Of a stretch of 64,000 nt of DNA, positions 54,143 through 58,680 are shown piece by piece. This DNA is from Thiorhodovibrio litoralis (GTDB lineage: Bacteria > Pseudomonadota > Gammaproteobacteria > Chromatiales > Chromatiaceae): positions 3,520,501-3,584,500 of the forward strand of contig NZ_CP121473.1 of assembly GCF_033954455.1 (NCBI RefSeq), read 5' to 3'. The position numbers were made by a program, and so were the translations under genes. Every line of letters starts with the position of its first letter. The stretch's first letter is position 1. The notes under the pieces are model-generated. The model saw only the letters and a list, made by a program, of their open reading frames with translations, did not search any database and was not told where the DNA came from.

Positions 54143-54787
54143 TTAGCCCGCAAGCGAGAACACCTCATCCAGCACATCGATGGGGTAACTGTTGACCGAA
54201 CCAAAGCGCTCGTCTGGAATACTGCCGATACGCTCACCGCGCTCCCGCGCGAGTTTGGCGGCGACAATCCCTTTCTGGCGCGATTCCGAGATCGGCAGCC
54301 GAATACCCTGTTGCTTCATGTAGGCGGTGATGGTCCGATAGCCCGTATCGCTGCCCATCAAATCGACCCGCTGTTCGAGTCTCGCGATCCGCTCCGCTTG
54401 TTCGGCTTGCTCGCGCTCCACTGCCAACATGGCCTCACCGTGCGCAATGAGGATCTCGGCTGGCGAGCGCGGGCCGGCCTGCTGCTGCTCAAGCTCCTGC
54501 CAGCGATCCACCAGACGGCCAGTAAACTCGGGAGAGAGTTGCGCGACGACGACAAAGCTATCACGCTTCTGTTCGGTCGTGAAAATGTAGGCGCGACTCT
54601 TTCGTTGGTGTCCAGCGGCATTCACAAAGGGGACTTCCCCCAATGGGGGAAGTCGAATTACACCCCGCTTGGCGATGCGTTCAATGCTCTGCATCACCTT
54701 GTCATGTCGGGATTCGACCAGGGCGGCGATCTCACGGCTATTCATGGATGGACCCTGGACGTGCAGAATCGAGAGTGGCTGATTCAT
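54143..54787 (-). CDS. Rha-family phage regulatory-type protein
   Basis: 214 residues from the ATG at 54787. The first 110 match the phage Rha family: MNSREIAALVESRHDKVMQS, GVIRLPPLGEVPFVNAAGHQ, RKSRAYIFTTEQKRDSFVVV, AQLSPEFTGRLVDRWQELEQ. A coiled-coil linker (EQAEQAERIARLEQRVD) and a C-terminal antirepressor-like part (GYRTITAYMKQQGIRLPISE) follow. Rha proteins regulate prophage genes. It has no other phage neighbour, only the TraB remnant and an IS downstream. A CCCCCAATGGGGG palindrome lies inside the gene. Confidence 0.75.
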   Translation of the reverse strand: MNQPLSILHVQGPSMNSREIAALVESRHDKVMQSIERIAKRGVIRLPPLGEVPFVNAAGHQRKSRAYIFTTEQKRDSFVVVAQLSPEFTGRLVDRWQELEQQQAGPRSPAEILIAHGEAMLAVEREQAEQAERIARLEQRVDLMGSDTGYRTITAYMKQQGIRLPISESRQKGIVAAKLARERGERIGSIPDERFGSVNSYPIDVLDEVFSLAG

Positions 54788-54889
54788 GTTGGTATCTCGT
54801 TCGTTTCTCAATCGTCGACTATTCGCCAAGGATGTTTCGATTCCAGAGTGGGCCGCTGCGGTGAACGGGTTCGACGCAGATCCATGCGC

Positions 54890-55615
54890 TTACTGAAGCT
54901 TCAGCCCCACGCCCCGGTTCAAAATGACCTCCACCCCGCGCCCGGCATCGACCTCAAGCACCGGGAAGATGGTCTCGGCCAGATCCAGGTAATACTCGGC
55001 CAGGCGATCCAGCGCCTTGCCGGTCCCTGAAATGGCCGCGCCTTGCAGGGCCTGTCCGGAGAAGACTTGCTGGTAGGGCATGGTGGTTCCACCAGTGGCG
55101 ACCGAGGCGACCGGCACGGTGCTGAACAGTTGGCTGAAGCCCTGCATGAAACTCACCTGCATGGCCCGTCCGATGACCTGGCCTTGCTTGTTGACCAGTC
55201 GCCCGCGCACGCCGACCTTGCCGTCCTCGCCGACGGCATAGCCATCGATGGCGACCTCAATGGTTCGCCCGTCGCGGCGCACGCAGTTGATCGACTCGGC
55301 GCGCAGATAAACCCGTTCGGAGCCCAGATCCCCGTAGCCGCCGACCAGCAGGAAGCATTCGCGGATATCGGCGCGGAAGCGGTTGGGCAGGATGGCGTTG
55401 TCTTTCAGCCGCAGCAGCGCTGGATAGGGATCCTGACGCGCGGTGCGACCGTTGGGGGCATCCATGCCGGAGAGCAAGACGCCTTGCAGAATGCTGCCGG
55501 CGGGAATGCGCACCTCGGGGATGGCGTCCTCGGGGGTGTTGGCCTTGCCGGCAGCGGCTTCAGCCCTGACGCATAACCACTCGCCCCCACAGGTGGCAAG
55601 GCCTGAGGGGCGGGC
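54890..55615 (-). pseudogene. traB: TraB conjugation protein, 5'-truncated
   Basis: The minus frame reads VRIPAGSILQGVLLSGMDAP, then DNAILPNRFRADIRECFLLV, then GGYGDLGSERVYLRAESINC, VRGRLVNKQGQVIGRAMQVS and FSQLFSTVPVASVATGGTTM. These come from the C-terminal outer-membrane-reaching half of F-type TraB (a VirB10 relative). The N-terminal membrane anchor and coiled coil are missing, and the frame upstream of about 55580 belongs to the insertion sequence end. No other tra genes are in the window. It is the relic of an integrated conjugative element or plasmid. Confidence 0.85.
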
Positions 55616-55707
55616 GGAAAAAATGTTTTCGCAAAAGCGGCTAGACAAAGCCCGCGCGTGATGCCAGAATCGATCCTGAGTCACTCCCGCGAAGAGATTG
55701 TCAGCGC

Positions 55708-56625
55708 ATGCACGATGAAGCTCGAACAACTTGGCGGCAAGGAGGTCGGGACATCACGCCCGAGGATCTGGCCTACATTCGCACCTTCGCCGAACGTTTC
55801 CCCGGATTATCGCGCACGGAGCTCACTGCCACCCTGTGCGAACACCTCGATTGGCTCACGCCCGCGGGCCGGCCAAAGTTTCAGGCCTGCTCCAAGCTGC
55901 TCGCGCGTCTGGAAGCGGCCGGGCAGTTGCGCCGCCCGGCTCTGGATGAACGCTTCAGTCATCCCGGCCCGCACGCGCGGGCCGCACCGGTCGCTCGCGC
56001 TCCCCGGCAGCGCCGATCCGTGGTGAGTTCCCTGTCGGCGCTTGCACCGGTGCACCTGCGCCTGGTCAGTGACCGAGCCGATGAGCACCGCTTCAATGAC
56101 GCCCTCGCGCAGTGTCATCCTCTGGGCTATAAAAAACCCTTCGGCTATTGGGCACGCTACTTGATCGAATCCAGCGAGCATTGGCTGGGCTGCGTGCTTC
56201 TGAGCGGTGCCGCCAAAGCCCTGACGGCGCGCGACCATTGGATTGGGTGGAGCGAGCGCCAGCGCCTGGCGAATCTGCCCTGGGTGGTCAACAACAGCCG
56301 TTTTCTCATCTTCCCAGGCGTTGAGGTGCCCCATCTTGCCAGTCATGTGCTTGGGCAACTGGCTCGGCAGATCGGTGAGGACTGGCACGCCTGTTGGGGC
56401 TACCGCCCGCTGCTGCTGGAGACCTTCGTCGACCCCGAGCGCTTTCGCGGCAGCTGTTACCGCGCCGCCGGTTGGACGCTGCTGGGACACACCAGCGGCA
56501 GAGGCCTGGTGCGGCCGGGGAAAACCTACCACACCCGCCCCAAGCTGATGTTTGCCAAGCCCTTGCAGGCGGAGTTTCGAACCCTGTTGTGCTCCCATCA
56601 ACTGCGAGGTCAAAGCGCGCCATGA
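55708..56625 (+). CDS. DUF4338 (Druantia DruA-type) protein of an insertion sequence
   Basis: 305 residues. An N-terminal helical region (FAERFPGLSRTELTATLCEH, LDWLTPAGRPKFQACSKLLA) is followed by the DUF4338 core: AQCHPLGYKKPFGYWARYLI, LGCVLLSGAAKALTARDHWI, NLPWVVNNSRFLIFPGVEVP, CWGYRPLLLETFVDPERFRG and CYRAAGWTLLGHTSGRGLVR. DUF4338 is the domain of DruA in the Druantia anti-phage system, but many copies ride in insertion sequences beside a transposase, as here. The biochemical activity is unknown. Its stop overlaps the next start (ATGA). Confidence 0.86.
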   Translation: MHDEARTTWRQGGRDITPEDLAYIRTFAERFPGLSRTELTATLCEHLDWLTPAGRPKFQACSKLLARLEAAGQLRRPALDERFSHPGPHARAAPVARAPRQRRSVVSSLSALAPVHLRLVSDRADEHRFNDALAQCHPLGYKKPFGYWARYLIESSEHWLGCVLLSGAAKALTARDHWIGWSERQRLANLPWVVNNSRFLIFPGVEVPHLASHVLGQLARQIGEDWHACWGYRPLLLETFVDPERFRGSCYRAAGWTLLGHTSGRGLVRPGKTYHTRPKLMFAKPLQAEFRTLLCSHQLRGQSAP

Positions 56626-58165
56626 GCAAACCCAGCCGGCGTCCGGGACGCGAGGAAATCAAAGCGCACGCGAGAAAAAAAAAGACCAACACAAGCGCTT
56701 GCGCCAACAGCAGCGTGAAGCGGGACTGAGTCCGCCGCCGAGCGCTACCCCGTCCAATCGCACCTGCCCTTTCCGCGACAACACCGAGGAACGCGCGGCG
56801 CGCACCGAGGCGGTGACGACACTGATCTTGATCATGCGCCAGATGCTGCCGATCCTGCTCAAACGCTTCGGCAAGATCCCCGATCCACGTCACCCCAAGA
56901 AGGTCAAACACAAACTCACCGTCCTGATGCTCTATGGGATCCTGGTGTTTGTGTTTCAGTATGGCTCACGACGCGCGAGCAATGGGGAGCTTACCCGGCC
57001 GATGTTCGAGGCCAACCTGCGGTTGCTCTTCCCGCAACTCGACGCCCTTCCTCACGCCGATACGCTGTTTCGCCTGCTCGCGCGCATCGATGTCAACGCC
57101 ATCGCCCACGCGCATCTTGAGCTCATCCAGCGCCTGATCCGCAACAAGACCTTCTCGCGCTACCTGATCAATAATTGTTACCCCATCGGGATCGATGGCT
57201 CGCAGAAACTCGCTTTTCCCACGCTGTGGGATGAGCATTTATCCCAACGCCGTGTCGGTCCCAAGGTGGACCCCGACAGCGACGAGGAGCAGGACTATCA
57301 GTACTACGTCTATGTGCTGGAGGCGAGCCTGTGCTTCCGTAACGGGATGGTGATTCCGTTGATGAGCGAGTTCCTTGAGTTTGCCCCAGAGCAGGGCGAG
57401 CAGCGCAAGCAGGACTGCGAGACCAAGGCCTTTCACCGTCTGGCCGAACGCATCAAAAACGCCTTTCCCCGTCTGCCGGTGATGGTGTTGCTCGATGGGC
57501 TCTATGCCAATGGCCCGATCATGGAACGCTGTCGTTCCTACCACTGGGATTTTATGATCGTGCTTAAGGATGGCTCGCTGCCAACTGTCTGGGAAGAGTA
57601 TCGCAGCTTGGCCCACGAGCACCCGGAGCATCGCTGCGAACAGACATGGGGCGAGCGCCAGCAGCAATTTCAGTGGGTCAACGCGATTCGCTACGAGTAT
57701 GGACCCAATGGCAAGAAGTTCCTTGAGGTCCATGTGGTGAGTTGCCACGAACACTGGCAGGTGGTGGACCCCAAGACTGCGGAGATCATCACCAAGCACG
57801 CCTGCCATGTCTGGCTCTCCTCGCGCCCCCTCAGCCGGCTCAATGTGCATACCCGCTGCAACCTCGGGGCGCGCTACCGCTGGGGCATCGAAGGGGCGTT
57901 TTTGGTCGAAAAGCACCAGGGCTACGGCTACGAACATGCCTTCGCCAAGCAGTGGAACGCGATGAAGGGCTATCATTTGCTGATGCGTCTGGCGCATCTG
58001 ATCAACACCCTGGCACGCTTCTCCAAGGCGCTCGCGGCGCTATTCGTGGAGCTTGGGGTGCAGGCCACCATCGGCTTCATCCGCAATACCCTCACCGGCC
58101 CTTGGCTCGATCCCCAAGAGGTGGAGCAGCGCCTGCAACGACCGTTTCGATTACGCTTGCTCTGA
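56622..58165 (+). CDS. DDE transposase made by a -1 frameshift
   Basis: The ATG at 56622 (overlapping the DUF4338 stop) opens a short frame, KPSRRPGREEIKAHARKK, that would end after 35 codons at 56729. A -1 slip on A AAA AAG at 56678-56684 joins it to a long frame with KDQHKRLRQQQREAGLSPPP, then ILLKRFGKIPDPRHPKKVKH, NNCYPIGIDGSQKLAFPTLW, LPVMVLLDGLYANGPIMERC and NLGARYRWGIEGAFLVEKHQ. These three blocks hold candidate D, D and E catalytic residues of an IS4-like fold. The fusion would be about 514 residues. An internal start is the alternative. Confidence 0.8.
56678..56684 (+). promoter_or_regulatory. Slippery heptamer A AAA AAG
   Basis: Within a run of nine A residues (56675-56683), the zero-frame codons of the small leader read AAA AAA AAG. 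The heptamer A AAA AAG is the classic bacterial -1 frameshift site used by dnaX and many insertion sequences. Slipping back one base enters the transposase frame. An upstream Shine-Dalgarno-like stimulator is not obvious. Confidence 0.75.
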
Positions 58166-58263
58166 GCTCAATATCGCCAGGAGTCTACCGCTTGCTCACA
58201 GCGCAGGCGGCGGCCCCCTATGGCCAAGAGGTCCTGCGGCAGCGATTTTTTCTCCGGCAGGCT

Positions 58264-58680
58264 CCGTCACACGGGCGCCAATGTTCGGTTTTCACCCCAC
58301 TCGGCGCGAAATCTTCTCGAAATTCCTGGTCCAGCGCCTTGGTCTGGTAAGTCGTGCGTCAGGGCTGTCCCGGTGCTCGCAAACTTGACTGAGGCGTCTT
58401 TTGTTCCGCCCCTGTCTCTGGGACATGCCGGTTTTGTCCACAGACATAGCATCTCAGCATTTTGCCGCGCATTCGCATGACCGGGGACGGTTGCTCGAAT
58501 GCGGCTTCCTCGACCTCTAGCCAGCCGGCCAGTGTGGGGAGATCGCTACATCGCACAAAACCTCCACACATGAATCAGACGCCTTCCGTTTACTGTTGAC
58601 GCACGAGCTTACCAGCGCCGCACCCGTGCTATTGTGGCGGCCCGCAATACCGCGACTGACTGGTTAGGAGGGTCGATTTC
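58264..58680. other. Spacer after the insertion sequence
   Basis: No supported gene in about 415 bases. Short frames lack domains. The last 100 bases hold the upstream region of the oxidoreductase gene, ending with TAGGAGGGTCGATTTC as its ribosome site. Confidence 0.4.

Follow-up and report, generated by a model that had tools for sequence, protein, structure and literature searches.

DruA is described, in passages of PMC7251935 and PMC13316683, as a component of the Druantia type I defence system. The excerpted text of PMC13316683 gives DruE as the protein common to Druantia types I to III, so that the statement that DruA defines Druantia, made in a first-pass annotation of the locus discussed here, needs correction. 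Moreover, extracts of PMC1088944 report A8/A9 variation among related insertion sequences (ISs) of Deinococcus and Nostoc as transcriptional slippage. The present analysis concerns a 2,807-bp IS of Thiorhodovibrio litoralis that carries a DruA gene followed by a transposase gene, situated in a window of 64,000 nucleotides (contig NZ_CP121473.1, positions 3,520,501 to 3,584,500; positions below are those of the window unless stated otherwise). On balance, we consider it probable that the IS is a two-gene operon with a DruA related to phage Mu Mom as a standing component, and with a transposase made by slipping on a run of nine A residues (A9).

The element is a mobile IS, and its borders follow from copies elsewhere in the genome and from its 13-bp ends, which place them at 55561 and 58367 rather than at 55611 and 58263 as assumed earlier (Table 1). 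The host genome, one 5.47-Mb contig, holds three full-length copies that agree over 2,807 bp (the two others are 99.5% and 99.0% identical to the one discussed), together with a right-end fragment (85%). The two other full copies, hence two of three, are flanked by 9-bp target duplications, TCTGCTTTT and GGTGGGTGC. Exact matches to the end sequence CAGCCCTGACGCA in the 64-kb window are the two element ends only; with up to two mismatches the motif is not enriched in the window (3 matches vs 3.9 expected), and therefore only the two exact copies count. Copies, ends, and duplications agree that DruA and transposase share one IS, as originally proposed. A point against this picture is that the window copy has no target duplication at its flanks. 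Its left end cuts a TrbI-like conjugation gene (Pfam, 126.7 bits), the sequence beyond its right end bears no relation to that gene, and together with the missing duplication this probably reflects a rearrangement after insertion.

Seven relatives (L124, L128, L126, L148, L125, L127, and L130) were searched for such ends. These are identical in L124 and L128, differ by one base in L126, and are present as a variant in L148, while no comparable ends were found in L125, L127, and L130. In Candidatus Accumulibacter ACC003, with 20 loci in total, the DruA-bearing unit is surrounded by 9-bp duplications in all 17 copies whose ends were examined (L151, L155, and L156 lie outside this examination). 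The element probably transposes by cut-and-paste. One Accumulibacter copy (L142) carries an extra insert of ~1.9 kb, apparently inside the DruA gene, with the target duplication intact.

The junction between the two genes is as first described: the DruA (DUF4338) stop overlaps a start codon in ATGA, an in-frame A AAA AAG heptamer follows 56 bases on, and the -1 frame beyond it is open to a DDE transposase of 493 codons, with its stop ending at 58165. That the genes are "joined by a frameshift" holds only in part. A change of frame is required, but it falls inside the transposase gene, where it links a 20-codon stub, and not DruA, to the transposase, and no single DruA-transposase protein results. 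The A9 is the sole run of at least seven A on the plus strand of the window; the dinucleotide composition of the window predicts 0.02 runs of at least nine A.

Table 1. Features of the DruA-bearing insertion sequence and its left flank (window positions).
Feature	Position	Strand	Basis
Complete insertion sequence, 2,807 bp	55561-58367	+	Matched end to end by two other full-length genome copies
Left terminal inverted repeat, CAGCCCTGACGCA	55561-55573	+	Perfect inverse of 58355-58367
Right terminal inverted repeat, 13 bp	58355-58367	-	Pairs with left end
DruA-domain (DUF4338) protein, 305 aa	55708-56625	+	Pfam DruA, 99.9 bits vs cut-off 27
N-terminal helical part of DruA (modelled), residues 1-75	55708-55932	+	AlphaFold2 model
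Predicted Mom-like GNAT-fold domain, residues 112-263	56041-56496	+	Foldseek, hhalign
ATGA, DruA stop (TGA) overlapping transposase start (ATG at 56622)	56622-56625	+	
Transposase gene, frame-0 start, 35 aa without slip, stop at 56729	56622-56729	+	
Putative A9 slippage tract	56675-56683	+	Sequence; encloses part of heptamer A AAA AAG
Heptamer A AAA AAG, in frame, 56 bases past ATG	56678-56684	+	
DDE transposase, -1 frame, 493 codons	56684-58165	+	Pfam DDE_Tnp_1_assoc, DDE_Tnp_1
TrbI/TraB-like conjugation gene, truncated by element	54890-55560	-	Pfam

To understand how the frame break is bridged, 18 junctions picked from the family loci were compared, with further near-identical Accumulibacter copies left out; they are not independent, since this genome contributes its three copies and a second genome of the same genus contributes two. 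The ATGA overlap is kept in all 18. Eleven junctions are out of frame, each with a run of 7-9 A, while the remaining seven are in frame and none of these has an A-run. The sequence and the shift needed vary among lineages: A9G with -1 in the window's genus; A8C with +1 in Lamprobacter, Halochromatium salexigens, and the metagenome-assembled genome (MAG) CSMAG_2860; A7C with +1 in MAG Bpl_19; and -1 in Hydrogenovibrio UBA650 (A8C) and MAG B38 (A9C). By locus, -1 is needed in L127 and L132 as in the window's genus, and +1 in L124, L128, L126, and L125, where a -1 shift runs into a stop. According to sections of PMC3711429, transcriptional realignment is marked by a poly-A tract that persists although the shift varies in direction. 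Here the A-run persists while its length (A7-A9) and the direction (-1/+1) change, which is better explained by transcriptional slippage than by a -1 shift of the ribosome. Judged from the aligned junctions, the run at the frame junction with its varying direction bears this mark, and slippage by RNA polymerase, which would yield heterogeneous mRNAs, is most likely.

The first-pass annotation had instead proposed a -1 shift at A AAA AAG, a standard slippery site of ISs; a ribosomal shift of this kind, with the heptamer kept among relatives, is not supported. We regard programmed -1 frameshifting at A AAA AAG as an unlikely source of the transposase. In its favor, the window copy and four other copies read from the genus all have the heptamer in frame, L127 and L132 could use A AAA AAC instead, and ribosomal shifting may operate in these -1 members, a point against polymerase slippage there. 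However, +1 and not -1 is required in the four loci named above, and the folds of the 100 bases downstream do not exceed those of shuffled sequences in the four of the 11 run-bearing sequences that were folded (z scores 0.35, -1.55, -0.46, and -0.55; the -1.55 of L124 was reached by 15 of 200 shuffles), so no outstanding stimulatory structure was seen in these four. Relatives that lack the heptamer and read in frame had been named as grounds for giving up the frameshift; distant relatives are of this kind, whereas near ones keep the slippery run.

It is very improbable that the break arose by chance mutation or marks a phase-variable tract, with the transposase a pseudogene or switched by slippage of DNA. 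Run length does differ among lineages (A7, A8, A9), and three of the 11 run-bearing members are broken again downstream (L132, which is the B38 copy, and L071 and L096 in the second genome of the genus). Against this, A9 is constant in all three copies here and in both copies of that second genome, separate lineages whose transposases are otherwise open differ in the direction needed, and none of the 11 members with an A-run is in frame.

DruA appears to be a lasting part of this element family. Among 35 family loci found in named genomes through the transposase, 30 have DruA upstream; the five without a DruA call either have no upstream region (L132, L154) or are truncated or partial matches (L150, L157, L158). 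Ratios of nonsynonymous to synonymous substitution rates (dN/dS) are 0.14-0.26 for DruA and 0.08-0.18 for the transposase (six measurable pairs each of seven family pairs attempted, the seventh being saturated), and DruA is under purifying selection. Its pairwise distances correlate with those of the transposase (Mantel r 0.92, 0 of 5000 permutations, 10 rows), as expected of genes traveling together; DruA has co-diversified with the transposase. The suggestion that DruA is part of the element's machinery is supported, in that it looks like such a part. The family occurs in 49 of 204 genomes of the order, 16 of 274 of the class, and 17 of 398 of the phylum, each count including the window's own genome.

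The association extends to other transposases. Pfam DruA has 31 matches at 30 loci in this genome, and 28 of these loci have transposases: 21 Tn5-type, three of the window family, three ISAs1-type fusions, and one IS66. The other two are a remnant resembling the ISAs1-type fusions and a defence-type DruA. At the Tn5-type loci (20 identically scoring and one variant) DruA lies ahead of an IS50/Tn5-type transposase, with Pfam Tnp_DNA_bind, DDE_Tnp_1, and Dimer_Tnp_Tn5 domains and again an ATGA overlap with DruA in L061. Both ends were found in 19 of the 20 copies, with an exact 9-bp duplication in 15, a match shifted by one base in three, and none in one. At the single IS66 locus DruA follows the transposase with a 4-base overlap. 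Five other genomes have in-frame fusions of DruA ahead of Tn5-type transposases (L105, L164, L203, L207, L208), and further in-frame fusions involve an ISAs1-type transposase (L106), a partial IS66 (L201), and another DDE_Tnp_1 protein (L205). Viral contigs contain four DruA loci on three contigs. In phage records DruA had no match at E 1e-5, and in plasmid records it was found in two, both of Candidatus Thiodictyon syntrophicum; the match in its pTs417 lies within a protein annotated as ISAs1 family transposase. On the viral contig of L214 (1961-4332), DruA overlaps a single-gene IS66-type transposase by 4 bases.

By partner, 76 non-redundant DruA rows comprise 19 of the window family, 20 Tn5, 13 IS66, nine ISAs1, and 15 unlabelled, a distribution that is biased since part of the loci were chosen by transposase and at least 150 profile positions were required of each row, which removed defence-type DruAs among others; the window-family labels of L104, L113, and L155 are doubtful. 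For three of the unlabelled rows Pfam gives a transposase (as neighbor in L206 and L214, as fusion in L205), leaving 12 without. On an unrooted tree of the 76 rows (74 different) made by a quick method, the partner labels, with "unlabelled" as one, change 16 times compared with 44.9 for shuffled labels, a contrast inflated by near-copies. Per group there are three changes for Tn5, three for ISAs1, six for the window family, seven for IS66, and 13 for unlabelled rows. The low number of changes is read as several captures, each followed by long association. That one DruA-type partner accompanies several families of jumping genes suggests that it helps DNA to move in all of them.

These data also bear on whether DruA is a passenger that protects the host or the element from phages or rival elements and plays no role in transposition, a reading that we find improbable. 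DruA does, in the passages cited at the outset, belong to Druantia type I, and a defence-type DruA with a PADLOC score of 391 bits is present elsewhere in this genome (L060). The window protein, however, matches PADLOC DruA with E 0.011 only, and no second gene of a known defence type accompanies it in the element. In-frame fusions place DruA ahead of transposases from several families, and the ATGA overlap is kept in every junction compared. As a separate candidate, a Druantia system at the locus was rejected: the PADLOC match is weak, and the sole genome match to the DruE helicase (PF09369), at genome positions 3616483-3616803, is ~38 kb away; DruB, DruC, and DruD were not searched for. In L060 (136-3540; genome 240015-241313) the defence-type DruA and an SspF/DndF-like ATPase part form one frame of 1,243 aa. 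At six further loci (L098, L100, L101, L102, L159, L183) a full-length DruA of ~390-415 aa adjoins a NurA-domain protein (called by Pfam in L098 and L100-L102, by phmmer in L159 and L183). These are apparently not ISs and are possibly defensive.

What DruA might do is suggested by its predicted structure. The AlphaFold2 model from 14 sequences (pLDDT 80.8, predicted TM-score 0.73) has strands at residues 9-11 and 14-16 and helices at 18-30, 36-46, and 58-70 in its N-terminal part, which may be winged-helix-like. DUF4338 is annotated as a GNAT domain in a section of PMC10853773. As modelled, the C-terminal half has a Mom-type GNAT fold in which most Mom active-site residues are kept. The first-ranking Foldseek match of the model is phage Mu Mom (8bv8; E 1.4e-5, TM-score 0.61 by target length), and hhalign of 76 DruA rows against Mom gives probability 95 and E 4e-8, while reversed and eight shuffled Mom profiles give at most 0.4. 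Apart from DruA itself, Mom is the only Pfam family that at least two of the 14 members match (six do so at E <= 1, best E 0.0015). H48, R101, S114, and D139 of Mom align with H137, R198, S212, and D242 of DruA, and G146, Y149, and G158 with G248, Y251, and G260; R101/R198 pair in the 14-row alignment only, the 76-row alignment having a gap there. A plain alignment of one Mom with one DruA sequence was uninformative. All 76 IS-type rows have R198 and S212; H137 is retained by 73 of the 76 and Y251 by 73 of 75, and 57 of 75 share with Mom an N at position 255. In 8bv8, a crystal titled as an inactive mutant, the serine that pairs with S212 has been replaced by alanine; H137, R198, Y251, and position 242 likewise correspond to active-site positions of Mom.

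Several observations weigh against such a kinship, or against carrying it through to the chemistry. The Foldseek E of Mom is close to that of the next match (3.1e-5), the other matches listed being a second Mom chain and acyltransferases, so that acylation of a protein or a small molecule is possible. With 14 DruA rows the hhalign probability is only 51 (E 1.5e-4). The window protein scores 11.2 bits with Pfam Mom against a gathering score of 27.1 (E 0.28), and a Mom-like family, although the sole PHROG match of the two DruAs scanned, is matched weakly (E 0.0025 and 0.0046). PDB sequence searches with one DruA or the 14-row profile returned nothing meaningful, Mom included. Position 242 is D in 44, E in 29, and Q in two of 75 rows, and the DruA site is therefore not identical to that of Mom. 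Furthermore, an IS-type profile served to select the 76 rows, which include no defence-type DruAs. The helical N-terminal part, the fusion of DruA ahead of a transposase DNA-binding domain, and the ordinary acyltransferases that make up most of the Foldseek matches listed give a fair chance, although we lean the other way, that DruA, with its GNAT fold, binds DNA or acylates proteins, guiding, assembling, or acylating the transposase, and does not modify bases. The rank of Mom in the PDB, its place as the only other Pfam family in several members, and the invariance of the Mom serine argue against this. Our best reading is that DruA is a Mom-like, DNA-acting helper of transposition, its activity being suggested by alignments and models.

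The transposase probably has a Tn5 fold. All six Foldseek matches of its model at E <= 0.001 are to five Tn5 transposase entries and to 1b7e, a "transposase inhibitor", namely that of Tn5; the model is of low confidence (mean pLDDT 58.9), which makes the match tentative. In Pfam the protein has the DDE_Tnp_1_assoc and DDE_Tnp_1 pair, which is typical of ISAs1, and no NCBIfam transposase model exceeds its cut-off (IS1380 20.9 vs 180 bits). Viral contigs gave no match to the window-type transposase.

In the operon proposed here, DruA would be translated first and in full, and ribosomes would restart at the overlapping ATG by translational coupling. Full-length transposase would come only from transcripts with an altered number of A, the slip being most likely made by RNA polymerase; as it would thus depend on a slip at A9, much DruA and little transposase would be expected. 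DruA would then act on DNA, either as a base modifier like Mom or as a DNA binder that descends from one, and its site of action might be the element ends, the donor, or the target DNA, which the kinship with Mom suggests it could mark. It would thereby help, time, or protect transposition, and the fusions to several transposase families hint that such an action is called for at the transpososome. A broader proposal, tentative and more doubtful than the operon itself, is that DruA is a Mom-related DNA-modifying module captured several times by different DDE transposases, as overlapping gene or N-terminal fusion, with which elements mark their own or target DNA to license or shield transposition. 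Under this proposal, Druantia type I and defence of the Dnd/Ssp kind would use the module again, for reading or writing marks on invading DNA. In the open-access papers covered (most subscription journals and preprints lie outside), neither DruA in ISs nor a kinship of DruA with Mom was found. Should a Mom relative have been recruited repeatedly, DruA would gain a testable chemistry and a second home outside defence, it would become clear why transposon-rich genomes make the family name "Druantia protein DruA" misleading, and one of the simplest mobile elements would have a new kind of helper.

Two further features of the window complete the description. A Rha-like phage regulatory protein (Pfam Phage_pRha, 30.6 bits) is encoded at 54143-54829 on the minus strand, adjoining the conjugation gene, and an Rfam scan of the window had no matches at gathering scores.

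Compared with known systems, the window protein belongs to the same Pfam family (PF14236) as DruA of Druantia type I but differs from it in its PADLOC match, which for the defence-type copy is far stronger (E 0.011 vs 391 bits). Phage Mu Mom (8bv8), a methylcarbamoylase that modifies adenine, shares the aligned residues listed above; unlike Mom, DruA has an extra N-terminal part, is 11% identical to it, and sits in ISs. The ISAs1-type and IS50/Tn5-type elements resemble the present one in the Pfam domains of the transposase and its Tn5-like model, and elsewhere DruA is their partner as well, yet the window transposase stays below every NCBIfam transposase cut-off. As in the Deinococcus and Nostoc ISs described in extracts of PMC1088944, a run of 8-9 A is located at the transposase frame junction and its length varies among relatives. 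Unlike those elements, the IS discussed here would slip after a stub of 20 codons, in an operon that starts with DruA.

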